Positions 16,748 through 64,000 of a stretch of 64,000 nucleotides of DNA are shown piece by piece. The notes below the pieces were generated by a model, which was not told the origin of the DNA, made no database searches, and saw only the letters and a program-made list of their open reading frames with translations. How positions within the stretch are numbered: position 1 is the first letter of the stretch; every line of letters starts with the position of its first letter. The DNA comes from Rufibacter psychrotolerans. Lineage in GTDB: Bacteria > Bacteroidota > Bacteroidia > Cytophagales > Hymenobacteraceae. A program made the position numbers and the translations under genes. Location of the stretch: assembly GCF_016924645.1 (NCBI RefSeq), contig NZ_JAFFJV010000015.1, positions 186,001 through 250,000 of the forward strand. Direction: 5' to 3'.

Positions 16748-17581
16748 TTACAGCGAGCTGGCTAGCGGGGCAGGCTCAACGGCCACCCGCACCAATCCCT
16801 GGAAACCTTTCTTCCCCAGATCCTGACGGGCCTGCTCGGCGGTGGTCTTGGAGACAAAGCGGCCGGCTAAGATGCGGTGCACCTTCTGCCCGTTCACGGT
16901 CTCTTCAACCAAGACAATGGGCATCTTCTGGTACAGCTTGCGCAGCTTCTCCACCTGAGCCGTAGCGTAGGCCAGATTCCCGAAGGCTCCGGCCTGCACC
17001 ACATACACCTGGGTTTGCGCCAGGGAAGGAGTAATAGGCGTTGGGTTGGTAGCAGTTGCGGTTGCCGGAGTTGGGGGGGCAGTAGCTTTAGGGGTCTCCG
17101 CAGCTTCTTTGATGGCTTCTGCCTTGGCCAGGGCCAGTGCTTCTTCCTTGGCAGCCTGCTCTGCTCTGGCTTTCGCTCTGCTGGCCAGGAACGCCTCGGG
17201 CAATTCCACCACTTCCACGGTCACATCGGCCAGGCCGTCTTTGCGGTAGTGGATTTTGCGGGCGGCGGCCTCAGATAGGTCTATGATGCGGGCTCCCCTG
17301 AAAGGACCGCGGTCGTTGATACGCACTACCACGCTCTCGCCGGTAGCCAGGTTGGTAACTTTTACTTTGCTGCCTAAAGGAAGTTCATTATGCGCGGCCG
17401 TAAGCTTGTGGCGGTTGTAGATTTCCCCGCTGCTGGTGGGTCGGCCATGGTATTTGGCCCCGTACCAAGAGGCCAGTCCGTTTTGCTTATCGCCTACTTC
17501 CTGCCCAAAGGCGGCTGGCGCAAAGCTGATGAAAAAGATAAAAAGAACGGTAAGCGCATTGTAAATTTTCAGTTTCCCCAT
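16748..17581 (-). CDS. rlpA: RlpA-family septal-ring lytic transglycosylase with SPOR domain
   Basis: RlpA cleaves denuded glycan strands at the septum. The signal peptide (ALTVLFIFFISFAPAAFG) is followed by a double-psi beta-barrel: GLASWYGAKYHGRPTSSGE, LTAAHNELPLGSKVKVTNL and VRINDRGPFRGARIIDLS (about 35-115), including the Asp-Arg-Gly-Pro motif. A Lys/Ala/Glu-rich helix and a Pro/Thr linker lead to a C-terminal SPOR domain (YVVQAGAFGNLAYA and VHRILAGRFVSKTTA), which binds denuded peptidoglycan. Length is 277 residues. A shorter RlpA-like protein lies at 48034-48444. Confidence 0.9.
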   Translation of the reverse strand: MGKLKIYNALTVLFIFFISFAPAAFGQEVGDKQNGLASWYGAKYHGRPTSSGEIYNRHKLTAAHNELPLGSKVKVTNLATGESVVVRINDRGPFRGARIIDLSEAAARKIHYRKDGLADVTVEVVELPEAFLASRAKARAEQAAKEEALALAKAEAIKEAAETPKATAPPTPATATATNPTPITPSLAQTQVYVVQAGAFGNLAYATAQVEKLRKLYQKMPIVLVEETVNGQKVHRILAGRFVSKTTAEQARQDLGKKGFQGLVRVAVEPAPLASSL

Positions 17582-18003
17582 TTTAGGTTTTGTTGGTGGA
17601 ACATCAATTTCAAGGCGACAAAATTAGGGCTAAATTCCCTCATGTCAAGCCGCCCGCCGTTGAGCACATGGTTTACACTCTACTAAAACTCATTAAAACA
17701 ACATTATTTTTATTAAATATCCAAATTTGCAAACCTGCAGTATAACTTAATTTACAATTCATGGTATGCCAGATTTCCTATTCATCAAGAAGAAATTTTC
17801 TACCAATACAGGCAATAAAAGCCGATTTTCTTCCCTAAATTGGATTAAAATGACATACCTGCTTTATCGCCAAATCCTTAGAAAAATAGAAACCGAAAAA
17901 TAAAAATCTATTTTTTCTGAAAAATTTAGCTGAAGGCCTAAAAACAGAGGCAATTGCCTACGAATTTAGCAGTTATATATAAAAAACAAAATATTTATAC
18001 ACC
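17582..18003. other. AT-rich divergent intergenic region
   Basis: About 420 bases between the divergent rlpA and DUF72 genes. From about 17690 to 18000 it is strongly AT-rich. It must hold the promoters of both genes, but I could not single out a clear TAnnTTTG/-33 pair. I see no open reading frame of note and no strong hairpin. Confidence 0.4.
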
Positions 18004-49744: not shown

Positions 49745-50500
49745 TCTGCCACAAAGGTAGCCACTTCACCAGGGTTCTGAAATAATTACTAAGGAAATGT
49801 TAAATAATCAGGGCTTTTAAGGCACAACGTTAATTATCTGTTAATTAACATTTCACATCTAGTTTTCAGGCTATTAGCATTTTATATTTGATTCAAATAA
49901 CAACAATTAACGCTTGCAATTACAACCGCAAAACCCATAAACACCACCACGCACTAGTACAAGTACCAACATATAAATAACATCATCTAACACCTTCAGT
50001 CCACCAACCACACCTTACATCTTAAAAAAACATGAAAGCGTTCTACCAAAAACTTATTTTTTTATTAAGTACCATGGGGGAATACAGCCTTTTAGGTGTC
50101 CGGTTTTATGAATTAAGTGTGCGACAATGAACATCACACAGAAGGCAAAACCTTATATACAGCCTAAAATCAACGATTTTCAAAAGTGGCACATGGCTTG
50201 CAATCTATAAACCAGAACAATTGACACCCCAAAAACAACTGAAACCAACCGGCCTGTGAGTCATGACAAGCACCTTTTAAAAAGATTTAAAAAAAATTTT
50301 CACCCTCAAGCAACCTTCATTTAAATTCTGCATCTATTAAAATGAAAGCACTTCAGAAAAGAATAACAATTTAAAAATAGCAGGCAACTTGTCTGACACG
50401 GACCTCCTTTTGCCTCATTTAATTAGAGGTGTTTACAGCCAATTACTCTTAATAAATAAAGATTATTTCTCCATTTGAAAACATTTAAAATAACAAAATC
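49745..50500. other. Long AT-rich gap before the SH3 protein gene
   Basis: About 750 bases, markedly AT-rich. A TATATTTG box (49883-49890) is a full match to the TAnnTTTG promoter element pointing right, but the -33 box is weak. A possible 32-codon gene lies at 50032-50130. If transcription starts near 49895, the SH3 protein gene has a leader of about 600 bases, unless another promoter exists closer to it. I see no strong hairpin. Confidence 0.4.
50032..50130 (+). CDS. Possible 32-residue small protein
   Basis: ATG at 50032 follows an A-rich leader (CTTAAAAAAAC), as many Bacteroidota starts do. The peptide begins MKAFYQKLIFLLSTMGEY and ends in ELSVRQ. It has a basic start and a hydrophobic stretch, so it could be a small membrane peptide. 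The frame is short enough to occur by chance. Confidence 0.25.
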   Translation: MKAFYQKLIFLLSTMGEYSLLGVRFYELSVRQ

Positions 50501-50815
50501 ATGAAAAGAGCATTATTAATTTTCGCCTTAGTTTGTGTTCAAGTATTAACCGCTTTTGCCCAAGGCCCAACCAGCCGGGTAAATTCTGAGAAGGTAAAAA
50601 TGTATCGTCAGCCAGGTTTGGGCGGTGAGGTAATGCGCCTCCTTAACCCTGAAGATGAAATTATTGTCATGCGCAAGCAGAACCATGAGTGGACCCTGGT
50701 ACAAATTGACGGAGAGGCCGGCTATGTGCTTACGTCTTACCTAAAAGCCAAAAAGGCCAAAAAAGCCACTGCTGCCAAAAACATTGACGCTACCAGCAAA
50801 AGCGCAAAACTGTAA
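50501..50815 (+). CDS. Secreted bacterial SH3-domain protein
   Basis: 104 residues with a signal peptide (ALLIFALVCVQVLTAFAQ). The mature part is one SH3-like domain: VNSEKVKMYRQPGLGGEVMR, then HEWTLVQIDGEAGYVLTSYL. It ends in a Lys/Ala-rich tail. Bacterial SH3 domains often bind peptidoglycan. It is monocistronic and followed by a perfect 21-bp terminator hairpin. Confidence 0.82.
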   Translation: MKRALLIFALVCVQVLTAFAQGPTSRVNSEKVKMYRQPGLGGEVMRLLNPEDEIIVMRKQNHEWTLVQIDGEAGYVLTSYLKAKKAKKATAAKNIDATSKSAKL

Positions 50816-53831: not shown

Positions 53832-54251
53832 ATGAAGAAAAGCTATTTTCTTTCTGGCAGCCTTGAACTCAGCTATGACGATGAACTGAGCACAGCGTAT
53901 GCGGTCTGGAACGGCTTCCTCTCAAGCGAGGAATTCAGAGAAGCAACCCAAAAGTGCATTGAGCTGATGGAGGAGCAGGGCATTACCCGCTGGCTCGCCG
54001 ACAACCGCAAAATGAGGGTAATCAGGCAGGCAGACCAACAATGGTTTGCCGAGACCATCATTCCGCGCATGCTCAACACCTCGCTGCGCCGCATTGCCAC
54101 CCTGGTGTCTGAAGATGTGTTCAACAAAATGGCGGTGGAGCAACTCATGCAGCGGGCCAACAGCAAGGAACAGATGACTATTCGTGATTTCAACCAGGAG
54201 GCCGCCGCCCTGGCCTGGTTAATGGCCCCACTTTCTCAGGCAGCGGTCTAG
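53832..54251 (+). CDS. Unknown protein, first of a tandem paralogous pair
   Basis: 139 residues, cytoplasmic, with the motif GITRWLADNRKMRVI near residues 50-64, then IIPRMLNTSLRRIATLVSED. The whole length aligns with the next gene's product (RLTRWLADDRQM... VVPAFLASPLRRMAILPSED). A beta-strand/helix start (LELSYDDELSTAYAVWNG) resembles SpoIIAA/STAS-like folds, so a STAS-like family of unknown role is my best guess. Confidence 0.6.
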   Translation: MKKSYFLSGSLELSYDDELSTAYAVWNGFLSSEEFREATQKCIELMEEQGITRWLADNRKMRVIRQADQQWFAETIIPRMLNTSLRRIATLVSEDVFNKMAVEQLMQRANSKEQMTIRDFNQEAAALAWLMAPLSQAAV

Positions 54252-60481: not shown

Positions 60482-60985
60482 TTAACTTGTAATACGAATC
60501 ATCTCTTCAATGCGCCGTTCGGCTTCTTCTTTGCTGATGCCATGGTAGAAGTCCTGCACCAGCGGATGCTCAAAATCATCAAAAGGAAAAACCATTGGCC
60601 TTCTGTTGTCTGGTTGGGTGACTACTGTTGACGGAACGCTTAAGGTATCCTCATACCCTAGCAGATTGTTGCACACATACCCAAAGTAAGAAGCCTCATG
60701 TTCTTCCTTATGAAAGTTCTCCTGGTAATCACGGAAGGTCTTCTCACTCACCGATACCCAAAGCCCGTAATTCAAATCGTCGCAGTGATTATTCACTGGA
60801 ATGGTCATCACTACTCTGATAAACCGATCTGTCTGGTCTTCATGCGTAATGGTGCAGAAGTCACCCTCAAGACAGCCAATGGTTTCTTCTTCGGATAAGT
60901 CATTGTAATGCGTGGGCGACGAATAGGTCAGGGCGGGCCAGCTTTCATGAGTTTGGCCGCAGTCTGCGCAAGTGTAGGAATGGAT
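60482..60985 (-). CDS. DUF2199 protein lacking an ordinary start codon
   Basis: The frame is open from 61000 to the stop at 60482. Its product begins HSYTCADCGQTHESW (Cys-x-x-Cys-Gly), then LTYSSPTHYNDLSEEE, FIRVVMTIPV, FGYVCNNLLGYEDTL and VVTQPDNRRPMV, matching DUF2199 from end to end with about 167 residues. There is no ATG, GTG or TTG ahead of the Cys pair. The codon where a start is expected is ATC (60983-60985), one base from ATG. An in-frame GTG at 60811 would lose the first third. Options are an ATC start, a lost start (pseudogene), or a sequence error. The function of DUF2199 is unknown. The frame touches the end of the PIN gene. Confidence 0.6.
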   Translation of the reverse strand: MHSYTCADCGQTHESWPALTYSSPTHYNDLSEEETIGCLEGDFCTITHEDQTDRFIRVVMTIPVNNHCDDLNYGLWVSVSEKTFRDYQENFHKEEHEASYFGYVCNNLLGYEDTLSVPSTVVTQPDNRRPMVFPFDDFEHPLVQDFYHGISKEEAERRIEEMIRITS

Positions 60986-60996
60986 AGAGCCTATAA

Positions 60997-61596
60997 CTAT
61001 TTATTAATTTGGAATTCTAAGAGGCTTCTATTACAAGTAAGTATAGGAATATCTGGGAAAGCAAAGTCGCCATCATGTGTAACTATTGCATATTGATTGA
61101 TAACACAAAAGTTATAGTAAATGGTATCATTAAAATCAGAATCAGGAGTCGTGTTCATTAGAGTTTGCATAGAGTCAATCTGCTCTAGCCCACTATCATC
61201 AAACTCTATGTAGGAAGCATATGCAGCTAAGTCATCTTTAAAGCTTTCTAGTGAATTTTGATAGTCTTGGGTAATTCGGTAATCTTTTTTAAAATCTAGT
61301 TTGTTAATCCCCTTTTCGTCAAGTTTTCTACTCTCCAAAAGTTCGTCTTTATAAACTGCGAATCTTATTCTGAGATACCTATTGAGAATCTCAGAAAGTA
61401 ACAATGTATTAACTACTGCCACCTTCTTGTCTGTATTCTTCTCAATTAGTATCCTCCAAAAGTTAAGGTATGCTTCTTCGTAGTACTTTGGTTGGAGTGG
61501 AGGGTTTAATATCCATAGCCACACATTCGCATCAAAAAAATAAAGCCGGTTGCCCGGCTTAGATTTTCTTATGTCAAAAATTTTAAACTTACTCAT
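60997..61596 (-). CDS. PIN-domain ribonuclease-like protein
   Basis: 199 residues in an AT-rich gene. The PIN acidic residues are in place: Asp22 in YFFDANVWLWIL, Glu69 in LLSEILNRYL, Asp154/Asp157 in DSDFNDTIYY, and Asp175/Asp177 in IVTHDGDF. PIN proteins are metal-dependent single-strand nucleases, often toxins. At 199 residues it is longer than VapC-type toxins (about 130), with an inserted charged region (about 80-125). Its start overlaps the STAS-like gene by eight bases, so the two are coupled. No VapB-like antitoxin is present; the STAS-like protein takes that place in the operon. Confidence 0.8.
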   Translation of the reverse strand: MSKFKIFDIRKSKPGNRLYFFDANVWLWILNPPLQPKYYEEAYLNFWRILIEKNTDKKVAVVNTLLLSEILNRYLRIRFAVYKDELLESRKLDEKGINKLDFKKDYRITQDYQNSLESFKDDLAAYASYIEFDDSGLEQIDSMQTLMNTTPDSDFNDTIYYNFCVINQYAIVTHDGDFAFPDIPILTCNRSLLEFQINK

Positions 61597-61936
61597 GTAT
61601 TCCTAACTCTTGATTGCGAGCATTTTCTCTAATTTCTCTTGCTTTTGGGTCTAAAGCAAGTTTATAAATTTCATTTACTTTATTTAGAATAGCTCTATTA
61701 TCAATACCATTTAATTCGATAGCGGACTTTGCCTCCTCTGGTTGAGGAGTAGATAACAAAAATCTACCAAGTGCAGCATTCAAGAAAGCAGATGTCACGT
61801 GACGCAATCCTTCAAATGAAAGCACAATCTTCTCATGTGGCTTATAGGATTCTTGAAGCTTTTCATAAACTTTCAAGCCGTCTACATCCAGTACAGCAAT
61901 TTGTTTGCCTATGATTTGAGCAATGCTTAACTGCAT
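61589..61936 (-). CDS. DUF4325 STAS-like protein
   Basis: 115 residues with the DUF4325 pattern: a strand-helix start and KIVLSFEGLRHVTSAFLNAA (about 36-55), like the phospho-acceptor strand/helix of SpoIIAA (Ser49 would be the matching serine). It ends in a charged helix (LDPKAREIRENARNQELG). STAS proteins are switched by phosphorylation by GHKL kinases, and such an ATPase is encoded next to it. A role as switch or antitoxin of the PIN protein is my inference. It starts 76 bases after the ATPase gene ends and has its own candidate promoter. Confidence 0.75.
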   Translation of the reverse strand: MQLSIAQIIGKQIAVLDVDGLKVYEKLQESYKPHEKIVLSFEGLRHVTSAFLNAALGRFLLSTPQPEEAKSAIELNGIDNRAILNKVNEIYKLALDPKAREIRENARNQELGIHE

Positions 61937-61972
61937 AACTTTCTTAATAAATGGTGGTTGGGGGTTGTGAGA

Positions 61973-62011
61973 AGGTTTGCAAACCTAATCAAATTTGATA
62001 TACGAAGCAAT
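61973..62011 (-). promoter_or_regulatory. Candidate promoter with two palindromic operators
   Basis: On the minus strand a -33-like ATTG (62008-62011) and a -7 box TAGGTTTG (61980-61987, full match to TAnnTTTG) are 20 bases apart. The palindrome AGGTTTGCAAACCT (61973-61986) covers the -7 box, and ATCAAATTTGAT (61988-61999) sits between the boxes. Both are perfect. A dimeric repressor bound there would block transcription of the STAS-like and PIN genes. Confidence 0.5.
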
Positions 62012-62012
62012 A

Positions 62013-62846
62013 CTACCCACAGTTGTATATAAGATGTATCGCAGTTCCAACAAATTCAGGAACATCTCTTGTTCCCATTTCTCCTAAGTTGTTCCCCCAG
62101 TACGCGCCTCCAGTTATTATGTTGAAAGCACCTCCTGCGTTTTTGCAATGCTCAAACAAATGGTATAGTCCCAATCCTCCTGTTTGAACTTCACCTTTCG
62201 TTGTATGCCCATACGCTAGAGACCATTCAATGGCATCTTTTGCATTGGAGATGGCTCCATTAGTAAATTTATGAATTGGAGGTAAGAATCCTTGGCCTAA
62301 ATCTACTATAGTAAAATTAAGCTTTGATTGACTTTGATAAAATTGCCCACATACAAAGACAGGATCGGTTGTGGCAGCGTGTTTTTGTATGTTCGAGAAT
62401 AGCTCAAGATACTGCTCATCTAAACCCTCGCACTTTAGATGAGTCATTTGAGGATGATTCAACAAATCCTTTTCAATGTATTCACAAAACTTGACATCAT
62501 CGTTTGGATAAAACAACTCAGATCTTACAGTAGAACGTGCATTATCAGCTAAGGTCAGAAGATTAGCTAAAAAGCCATTCCTAAAAAGAATTGGATATTT
62601 AGCTTTCACAAGCTCAACATCAAGACTAAATGTTAGGTTATTTTCAGTATTGAGCTTATAGAGGATAGCTTGAAGGAGTGCGCTCAAGTTTGCATCGAAC
62701 CAATATAATGGCTTAAAGTCAATGAAGATTACAGTGTTGTAATAGCAAGAGCATCTCTTATAAAAATTGACTAAGCTTCTATACCCGGAAGGACAAGTTG
62801 TGATCTTTCCTTCAAGTGCAATTGAAACTGTATCGGTGACTTCCAC
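62013..62846 (-). CDS. STAS-like/GHKL-ATPase fusion protein
   Basis: 277 residues from a GTG at 62846; an in-frame stop lies just upstream. The N-terminal 100 residues look STAS-like (VIFIDFKPLYWFDANLSALL, like the core of DUF4325 but without the phospho-serine). The C-terminal part is a GHKL ATPase: N box E148-L-F-S-N152, G1 box D182-L-G-Q-G186, and G2 box G223-G-L-G-L227. There is no histidine-kinase dimerisation helix, so it is closer to SpoIIAB/RsbW serine kinases or stand-alone ATPases. It is the first gene of the AT-rich island and presumably senses a signal and acts on the STAS-like protein. Confidence 0.75.
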   Translation of the reverse strand: MEVTDTVSIALEGKITTCPSGYRSLVNFYKRCSCYYNTVIFIDFKPLYWFDANLSALLQAILYKLNTENNLTFSLDVELVKAKYPILFRNGFLANLLTLADNARSTVRSELFYPNDDVKFCEYIEKDLLNHPQMTHLKCEGLDEQYLELFSNIQKHAATTDPVFVCGQFYQSQSKLNFTIVDLGQGFLPPIHKFTNGAISNAKDAIEWSLAYGHTTKGEVQTGGLGLYHLFEHCKNAGGAFNIITGGAYWGNNLGEMGTRDVPEFVGTAIHLIYNCG

Positions 62847-62927: not shown

Positions 62928-64000
62928 TTAGCTACCGCAAGCCTCGCAAGCGTCTGGGTTATCCAGGGAGCAGGCCATGTCGCTTTGGTTCTGCTCAACG
63001 CTGCTGTACATAGGGGCCAGGGTTTCGGCGGCCTGTTTCTCTACGGTGAACTTGATGGCGTCAGCGGCGGCCTTGGTGCGCAGGTAGTACATACCGGTTT
63101 TCAAGCCTTTCTTCCAGGAGTGGAAGTGCATTGACGTCAGTTTCCCGAAGTTCACGTTAGACACGTGCAGGTTCAGGCTTTGGCTCTGGCAGATATACGC
63201 ACCGCGGTCGGCAGACATATCAATGATGGTCCGCTGGCTGATCTCCCACACGGTCTTGTACAGGTCTTTGATGTGCTGCGGAATGTTAGGAATACCCTGT
63301 ACCGAGCCGTTGGCGGCAATAATGGCATTCTTCATCTGGTCGTTCCACAGGTTAAGGTCAATCAGATCCTGCAACAAGTGCTTGTTCACCACCATGAACT
63401 CCCCGCTCAACACGCGGCGCACGTAGATGTTAGACGTGTAAGGCTCAAACCCTTCGTTGTTCCCCAAGATCTGCGAGGTAGAAGCGGTTGGCATGGGCGC
63501 TACCAACAGAGAGTTACGCACCCCGTGCTCTACCACTTCCTGACGAAGCGCTTCCCAGTCCCAACGGCCGCTCTCTGGCTTCACGCCCCACATGTCAAAC
63601 TGGAAGATACCCCGGCTGATAGGCGAACCTTCAAACGTCTCGTATGGTCCGTTCTTTTTCGCCAGGTCCTTAGAGGCCGTCATGGCCGCGAAGTAAATGG
63701 TCTCAAAGATGTCTTTGTTCAGGCGGGCAGCTTCTTCGCTGTCAAACGGCATACGCAGTTTCAGGAAAGCATCGGCCAAGCCTTGCACGCCTAAGCCTAT
63801 TGGGCGGTGACGCAGATTAGACTTCTTAGCCTCTGGTACCGGGTAGTAGTTGATGTCAATGACCTTGTTCAGGTTCTTGGTAACGGTGTAGGTTACCTCG
63901 TACAGCTTCTGGTGGTCAAAGAACTTACGGCCGCCTTCTTCCTTGATAAAGCGTGGCAAGGCCAGAGAGGCCAGGTTACACACGGCAATCTCATCGGCAT
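62928..64000 (-). CDS. nrdA: Ribonucleoside-diphosphate reductase alpha subunit, C-terminal part (partial)
   Basis: The frame runs off the right edge, so this is the last 357 codons of the class I large subunit, which reduces ribonucleotides to deoxyribonucleotides. Marks are [11 protein letters not shown] at the start of the visible part, [59 protein letters not shown] and the C-terminal redox pair CEACGS. The sequence resembles the eukaryote-like (NrdA type Ia) branch. The active-site NLCxE loop and the N-terminal ATP cone lie outside the window. Codon composition is typical of the chromosome, unlike the neighbouring island. Confidence 0.95.

Follow-up and report, generated by a model that had tools for sequence, protein, structure and literature searches.

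A vapKSC operon of Rufibacter psychrotolerans with a conserved terminator-like hairpin in its toxin gene

The 64,000-nucleotide stretch of Rufibacter psychrotolerans DNA analyzed here (the window) contains three neighbouring genes on the minus strand whose base composition sets them apart from their surroundings. The question raised by this locus is what the three proteins do together and whether they belong to a system that has already been described. Gene 1 (62013-62846) begins with a GTG codon and encodes 277 amino acids, gene 2 (61589-61936) encodes 115 and gene 3 (60997-61596) encodes 199; genes 2 and 3 overlap by 8 bases (61589-61596). Their G+C contents are 0.381, 0.359 and 0.340, respectively, whereas the window as a whole has 0.524 and most neighbouring genes have 0.54-0.59. 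The open reading frames, coordinates and composition (34-38% G+C versus 52%) confirm the first-pass annotation, which had described three adjacent minus-strand genes, two of them overlapping by eight bases, in unusually A+T-rich DNA. A promoter scan gave matches that were not commoner than in shuffled sequence. Two further stretches of the window (49750-50750 and 17500-18000) are also A+T-rich, at 34-38% G+C, and are mostly intergenic non-coding DNA. A further SpoIIAA-like STAS-fold protein, unrelated to the operon, is encoded at 53832-54251 (PF11964, E=1.5e-6).

When 395 Bacteroidota genomes were searched with the gene 1 protein, relatives were found in 28. Among 29 distinct Bacteroidota kinase loci sampled, 21 have the three genes directly adjoining, on one strand and in the order found here, and eight do not. 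The same-order trio occurs on plasmid P5 of Deinococcus gobiensis and in Rufibacter ruber, where it lies at the equivalent chromosomal place. Searched across the class (395 genomes), the gene 3 protein gave seven strong matches (E<1e-30), all of them in operons of this type; the weaker matches were mostly ordinary VapC-type proteins of 135-142 residues. The recurrence of order and strand at the 21 loci and on the Deinococcus plasmid argues against a chance neighbourhood. Viral contigs scanned with three queries of the gene 1 family yielded nothing, in a scan that reaches close relatives only.

The identity of the trio emerged from comparison with known structures. The gene 2 protein matches DUF4325 (PF14213, E=4.9e-9) and the gene 3 protein the PIN domain (PF01850, E=3.9e-4, slightly below the gathering score). 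Against the PDB, the gene 2 family profile found chain A of entry 9Z7O, an Escherichia VapS (E=2.2e-29; next match 0.08), and the gene 3 family profile found chain C, the VapC of the same entry (E=1.5e-29; next match 0.23), with no other significant chain in either case; the single gene 2 protein of the window already has 9Z7O as its top match (E=0.0034). This entry is the crystal structure of Escherichia VapS2-VapC2, from the description of VapKSC published by Chambers et al. on 9 June 2026 in the same work as CapK/CapS (EMBO J; PMC13373217). VapKSC consists of a CapK-like kinase, a STAS antitoxin and a VapC-like nuclease, and 36% of the 289 published instances lie near other defence genes (PMC13373217). 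It was named in no other paper found in our literature search. Since the two family profiles match only the 9Z7O chains significantly, we regard the trio as a member of this described system and refer to the genes as vapK, vapS and vapC. The first-pass annotation knew of no described system with the three families; VapKSC has exactly these, so that this part of it was wrong on grounds that it had itself named.

In VapS, pairwise alignment to 9Z7O chain A places Ser49 (codon 61790-61792, minus strand) opposite Ser48 of the Escherichia protein, the phospho-acceptor; Ser48 corresponds to residue 66 in the tagged chain, with the offset of 18 residues deduced from the chain length of 134 against 116 for the native protein. 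All 22 homologous operons compared have S (16) or T (6) at this position. Beyond the STAS core, VapS carries a C-terminal tail of 23 residues (93-115; 61589-61660 with the stop codon, minus strand), the equivalent of the toxin-inhibiting residues 94-116 in Escherichia. The tail is 21-27 residues long in every one of the 22 operons that include a PIN gene and only 6-14 in five of five sampled kinase-STAS pairs without one, in a comparison of related rather than independent rows to which we therefore attach no probability. The tail published as the inhibitor of VapC thus occurs in just those sampled loci that have the PIN toxin. A tblastn search with the aligned stretch of Escherichia VapS matched nothing in plasmids and, among phages, one unannotated faecal contig. 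In VapC, residues D22, N24, D154, D157, D175 and D177 are invariant in the 22 operons, and profile alignment to 9Z7O equates Asp22 (codon 61531-61533, minus strand) with the catalytic Asp28 of the Escherichia toxin.

The VapK protein alone has no Pfam match, but within its family alignment HATPase_c is matched by 11 of 16 members and STAS by two of 16. The residues of the N box (E148, N152, H156), G1 box (D182-x-G184) and G2 box (G224-x-G226) are invariant or nearly so across homologues. VapK and its homologues start at once with the STAS part and have no N-terminal HTH of the CapK type. Comparison of the VapK N-terminus with the VapS profile gave a probability of only 10.6%, so the STAS assignment is carried by the Pfam matches of the homologues; the AlphaFold model, built from an alignment of only two sequences, is poor (pLDDT 42). 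Trp49 (codon 62700-62702, minus strand) falls in a column that is W or F in 18 of 21 homologues and T or H in the other three, and is most likely the equivalent of Escherichia F54 and CapK W68, the aromatic residue of the putative ssDNA-binding site. In a phylogenetic tree, the kinases of PIN-bearing operons (28 rows, together with one long-branched row without PIN) group apart from other kinases with support of 98/95. The family comparisons therefore bear out what had been read from the single sequences: a GHKL ATPase with N, G1 and G2 boxes and a STAS-like N-terminus, a DUF4325 protein with Ser49 as possible phospho-serine, and a PIN protein with its acidic residues, of which D22, D154, D157, D175 and D177 do not vary.

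Several loci depart from the common arrangement. At L005:1281-2097 and L008:1474-2235, vapK lies in two frames or has an internal stop, so that these may be broken kinases beside an intact vapS-vapC. Genome G592 has a vapC followed by a vapS-like gene (L145:1216-2313), the reverse order, with Ile in place of the phospho-acceptor; the pair is flanked by a PDC-S18-like gene and a type II methyltransferase, and a search of this one genome, which is 95% complete, found VapK nowhere. Some GHKL-DUF4325 pairs without a PIN gene adjoin a gene for a small protein, located before the kinase (L123:2531-2995, L124:5258-5722, L130:5239-5763) or after the STAS gene (L132:3411-3917, L133:3357-3890). These small proteins resemble a membrane segment plus coil, with no confident Pfam family, and the pairs may represent a variant whose effector acts at the membrane. 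Elsewhere, vapKSC adjoins a type I restriction methylase (HsdM; L134, genome G498) and a resolvase (L121, genome G488).

In the Escherichia homologue, toxicity of VapC and antitoxin activity of VapS were demonstrated, the VapS C-terminal tail was found to be required and to inhibit VapC, and the S48E substitution abolished binding and neutralisation; the operon gave about 2-log protection against phage Bas42, dependent on D28, S48 and F54 (PMC13373217). Even in Escherichia, it was by inference that VapK was taken to be triggered by ssDNA and to phosphorylate VapS, and the RNA target was likewise inferred (PMC13373217). By the same scheme, VapS in Rufibacter would at rest bind a dimer of the RNase VapC, with its C-terminal tail blocking the active site. 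A build-up of ssDNA, during phage infection or after DNA damage, would activate VapK, a STAS-GHKL serine kinase, which would phosphorylate VapS on Ser49 and thus cause it to release VapC; the free toxin would cleave cellular RNA, and growth would stop before the phage could spread. For the window copy this scheme is suggested by gene order, by the match of the VapS and VapC families to the solved Escherichia complex and by residue conservation, and within it we infer the ssDNA site. Toxicity, rescue by the antitoxin, protection against phage and the response to ssDNA are predicted from the Escherichia homologue. On this evidence we hold it very probable that the trio is an anti-phage vapKSC operon whose tail-blocked VapC is freed through VapK-triggered phosphorylation of VapS Ser49. 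The first-pass annotation had guessed a similar logic, in which the kinase controls a STAS-like protein that restrains the PIN nuclease, as a toxin-antitoxin or defence system; this mechanism agrees with the Escherichia homologue, and only the supposed lack of a description fell.

The operon is located 3' to nrdA, which encodes the large chain of ribonucleotide reductase; the 3' part of this gene (62928-63998, minus strand) forms the left border of a variable site and is found in each of the 16 genomes available for the genus. Among these genomes (L103-L117), vapKSC occupies the site twice, in the window genome and in R. ruber. In the others the site holds an Old-like nuclease, AbiD, a ParE toxin, a KAP ATPase, MORN proteins, genes of no known function or almost nothing. 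In genome G425, which belongs to a different genus within the same family, vapKSC likewise lies directly behind nrdA. The place is thus a small site of gene turnover whose contents include defence and toxin genes. In the window genome, a scan of ten proteins encoded within about 10 kb of the operon found no PADLOC family. The right border is a DUF2199 gene (60482-60979, minus strand), an open frame of 172 amino acids with no ATG, GTG or TTG where its relatives start.

Within this site, DNA identity to R. ruber is 96-97% between about 62,110 and about 60,990, compared with about 80% in the flanks; the second of these edges coincides with the DUF2199 frame that lacks a usual start codon. The values of dS tell the same story: 0.59 for nrdA, 1.21 for vapK codons 1-245, 0.16 for vapS, 0.125 for vapC and 1.85 for DUF2199. 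Thus vapS, vapC and the 3' end of vapK (60990-62110) were exchanged recently, as one piece, between Rufibacter species. The VapS proteins of the two species are 100% identical at a dS of 0.16, and VapC has a dN of 0.016 at a dS of 0.125, which indicates purifying selection on both genes. This bears on whether the window copy might be a decayed remnant, a once-working vapKSC kept without function. The high A+T content and the neighbouring DUF2199 frame would suit such a remnant, but all frames of the operon are open, the catalytic residues are intact and the two proteins are under constraint, and we consider decay most improbable.

Two other readings would keep the kinase and STAS protein but give them a different output. 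By architecture, the nearest relatives of VapK and VapS are CapK and CapS, which also use a GHKL-STAS pair, and the trio could be a transcriptional controller of that kind with a DNA-binding STAS protein and the PIN gene as no more than its regulated target. However, VapK lacks an HTH, VapS carries only its 23-residue tail with no wHTH, and VapS matches an Escherichia protein that was solved in complex with VapC; we consider such a controller very unlikely, if marginally less so than decay. No more credible than decay is a general-stress partner switch of the SpoIIAA/SpoIIAB or RsbW type whose final target is a sigma factor and which has the PIN gene beside it only by chance. The STAS and GHKL folds are those of such a switch, and the VapK profile has weak matches to the anti-sigma antagonist TM1442 (E=0.026) and to RsbS (0.059), but the PIN gene keeps its place at 21 of 29 loci and across phyla, the VapS tail accompanies it, and no sigma factor gene adjoins the operon.

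The toxin gene itself contains an element that is not part of the published VapKSC description. On the coding strand of vapC, the hairpin AAGCCGG-GCAA-CCGGCTT (61,560-61,543) is followed by TATTTTTTT, and this terminator-like element (61534-61560, minus strand) spans codons 13-21, immediately 5' of the catalytic Asp22 codon. Such an element was found at the same place in seven of the seven Hymenobacteraceae vapC genes identified, although the residues encoded there vary (KPGNRL, KPDNRL, PAPSRL, PALGRL and others). When codons were shuffled synonymously, none of 300 shuffles matched the hairpin in any of the six Hymenobacteraceae genes tested. Pairing is kept in 96% of the pair cells of the alignment, and two pairs have changed on both sides, a modest covariation in few sequences. 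In a second VapC clade, distant from the first, six of the seven members also have a terminator-like hairpin there, unrelated in sequence and with other stems, four of the six being related members of one family; at most two of 300 shuffles reach them. No hairpin was found at this position in thirteen other vapKSC operons or in ordinary VapC controls. Other terminator-like sites in the operons lie mostly at 3' ends, as expected of real terminators, apart from two weak ones in vapK.

The vapC hairpin may terminate transcription. Most transcripts would then stop there and yield full-length kinase and antitoxin with no active toxin, and VapC would come only from those whose hairpin is prevented from folding, as a ribosome close behind might do. 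We give even chances to the proposal that two Bacteroidota vapKSC lineages carry an intrinsic terminator in the toxin gene, just before the catalytic Asp codon, as a safety catch. A target site for VapC, or an effect on translation, would also fit the hairpin. Neither "terminator" nor "hairpin" is mentioned in the VapKSC paper (PMC13373217), and our literature search found no comparable element in a toxin gene. Among the comparative additions made here (the VapS tail, the nrdA site, the exchange and the hairpin), only the hairpin is a new lead. It suggests a further, unreported layer holding the toxin below the antitoxin; the terminator reading, if true, would amount to a transcriptional safety catch written into the toxin's own reading frame. 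Beyond this, the range of the VapKSC family is extended to the Hymenobacteraceae and, through one plasmid, to the Deinococcota, and the co-occurrence of VapS tail and PIN toxin, together with an S or T phospho-acceptor in every operon sampled, provides independent support for the published mechanism.

Among known systems, DISARM was rejected: the PADLOC match to DrmA covers only residues 148-272, the GHKL part, of a profile of 1750 positions, and there is no DrmA helicase. SpoIIAA/SpoIIAB and RsbV/RsbW share with the trio a GHKL kinase that phosphorylates a serine of a STAS protein and so changes its binding partners; their output is a sigma factor rather than an RNase, and a sigma-factor partner switch was rejected since its defining domains are missing. 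As in classical VapBC, a PIN-domain toxin adjoins its antitoxin. However, VapB of classical VapBC is a DNA-binding protein, and we rejected this assignment on finding a DUF4325/STAS antitoxin and no small protein of the VapB type; classical VapBC has neither kinase nor STAS protein, and ordinary VapC proteins in the genomes searched have 135-142 amino acids against 199 here. CapK and CapS likewise combine a GHKL-STAS kinase with a STAS protein on whose serine it acts, and a response to ssDNA was shown for CapK (PMC13373217). They differ in the HTH of CapK and the wHTH of CapS, both absent from the window proteins, on which ground they were rejected; moreover, they act as transcriptional repressors of an adjacent immune operon and bind no toxin (PMC13373217). 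The VapKSC of Escherichia sp. E4736 agrees with the Rufibacter operon in families, gene order, the VapC Asp, the VapS Ser/Thr, the VapS C-terminal tail and the HTH-less VapK. The Rufibacter copy differs in its Bacteroidota host, in its low sequence identity, such that VapC is reached by profile only, and in the internal hairpin of Hymenobacteraceae vapC. Save for this conserved hairpin in the toxin gene, the operon in the window is an ordinary member of the VapKSC family.
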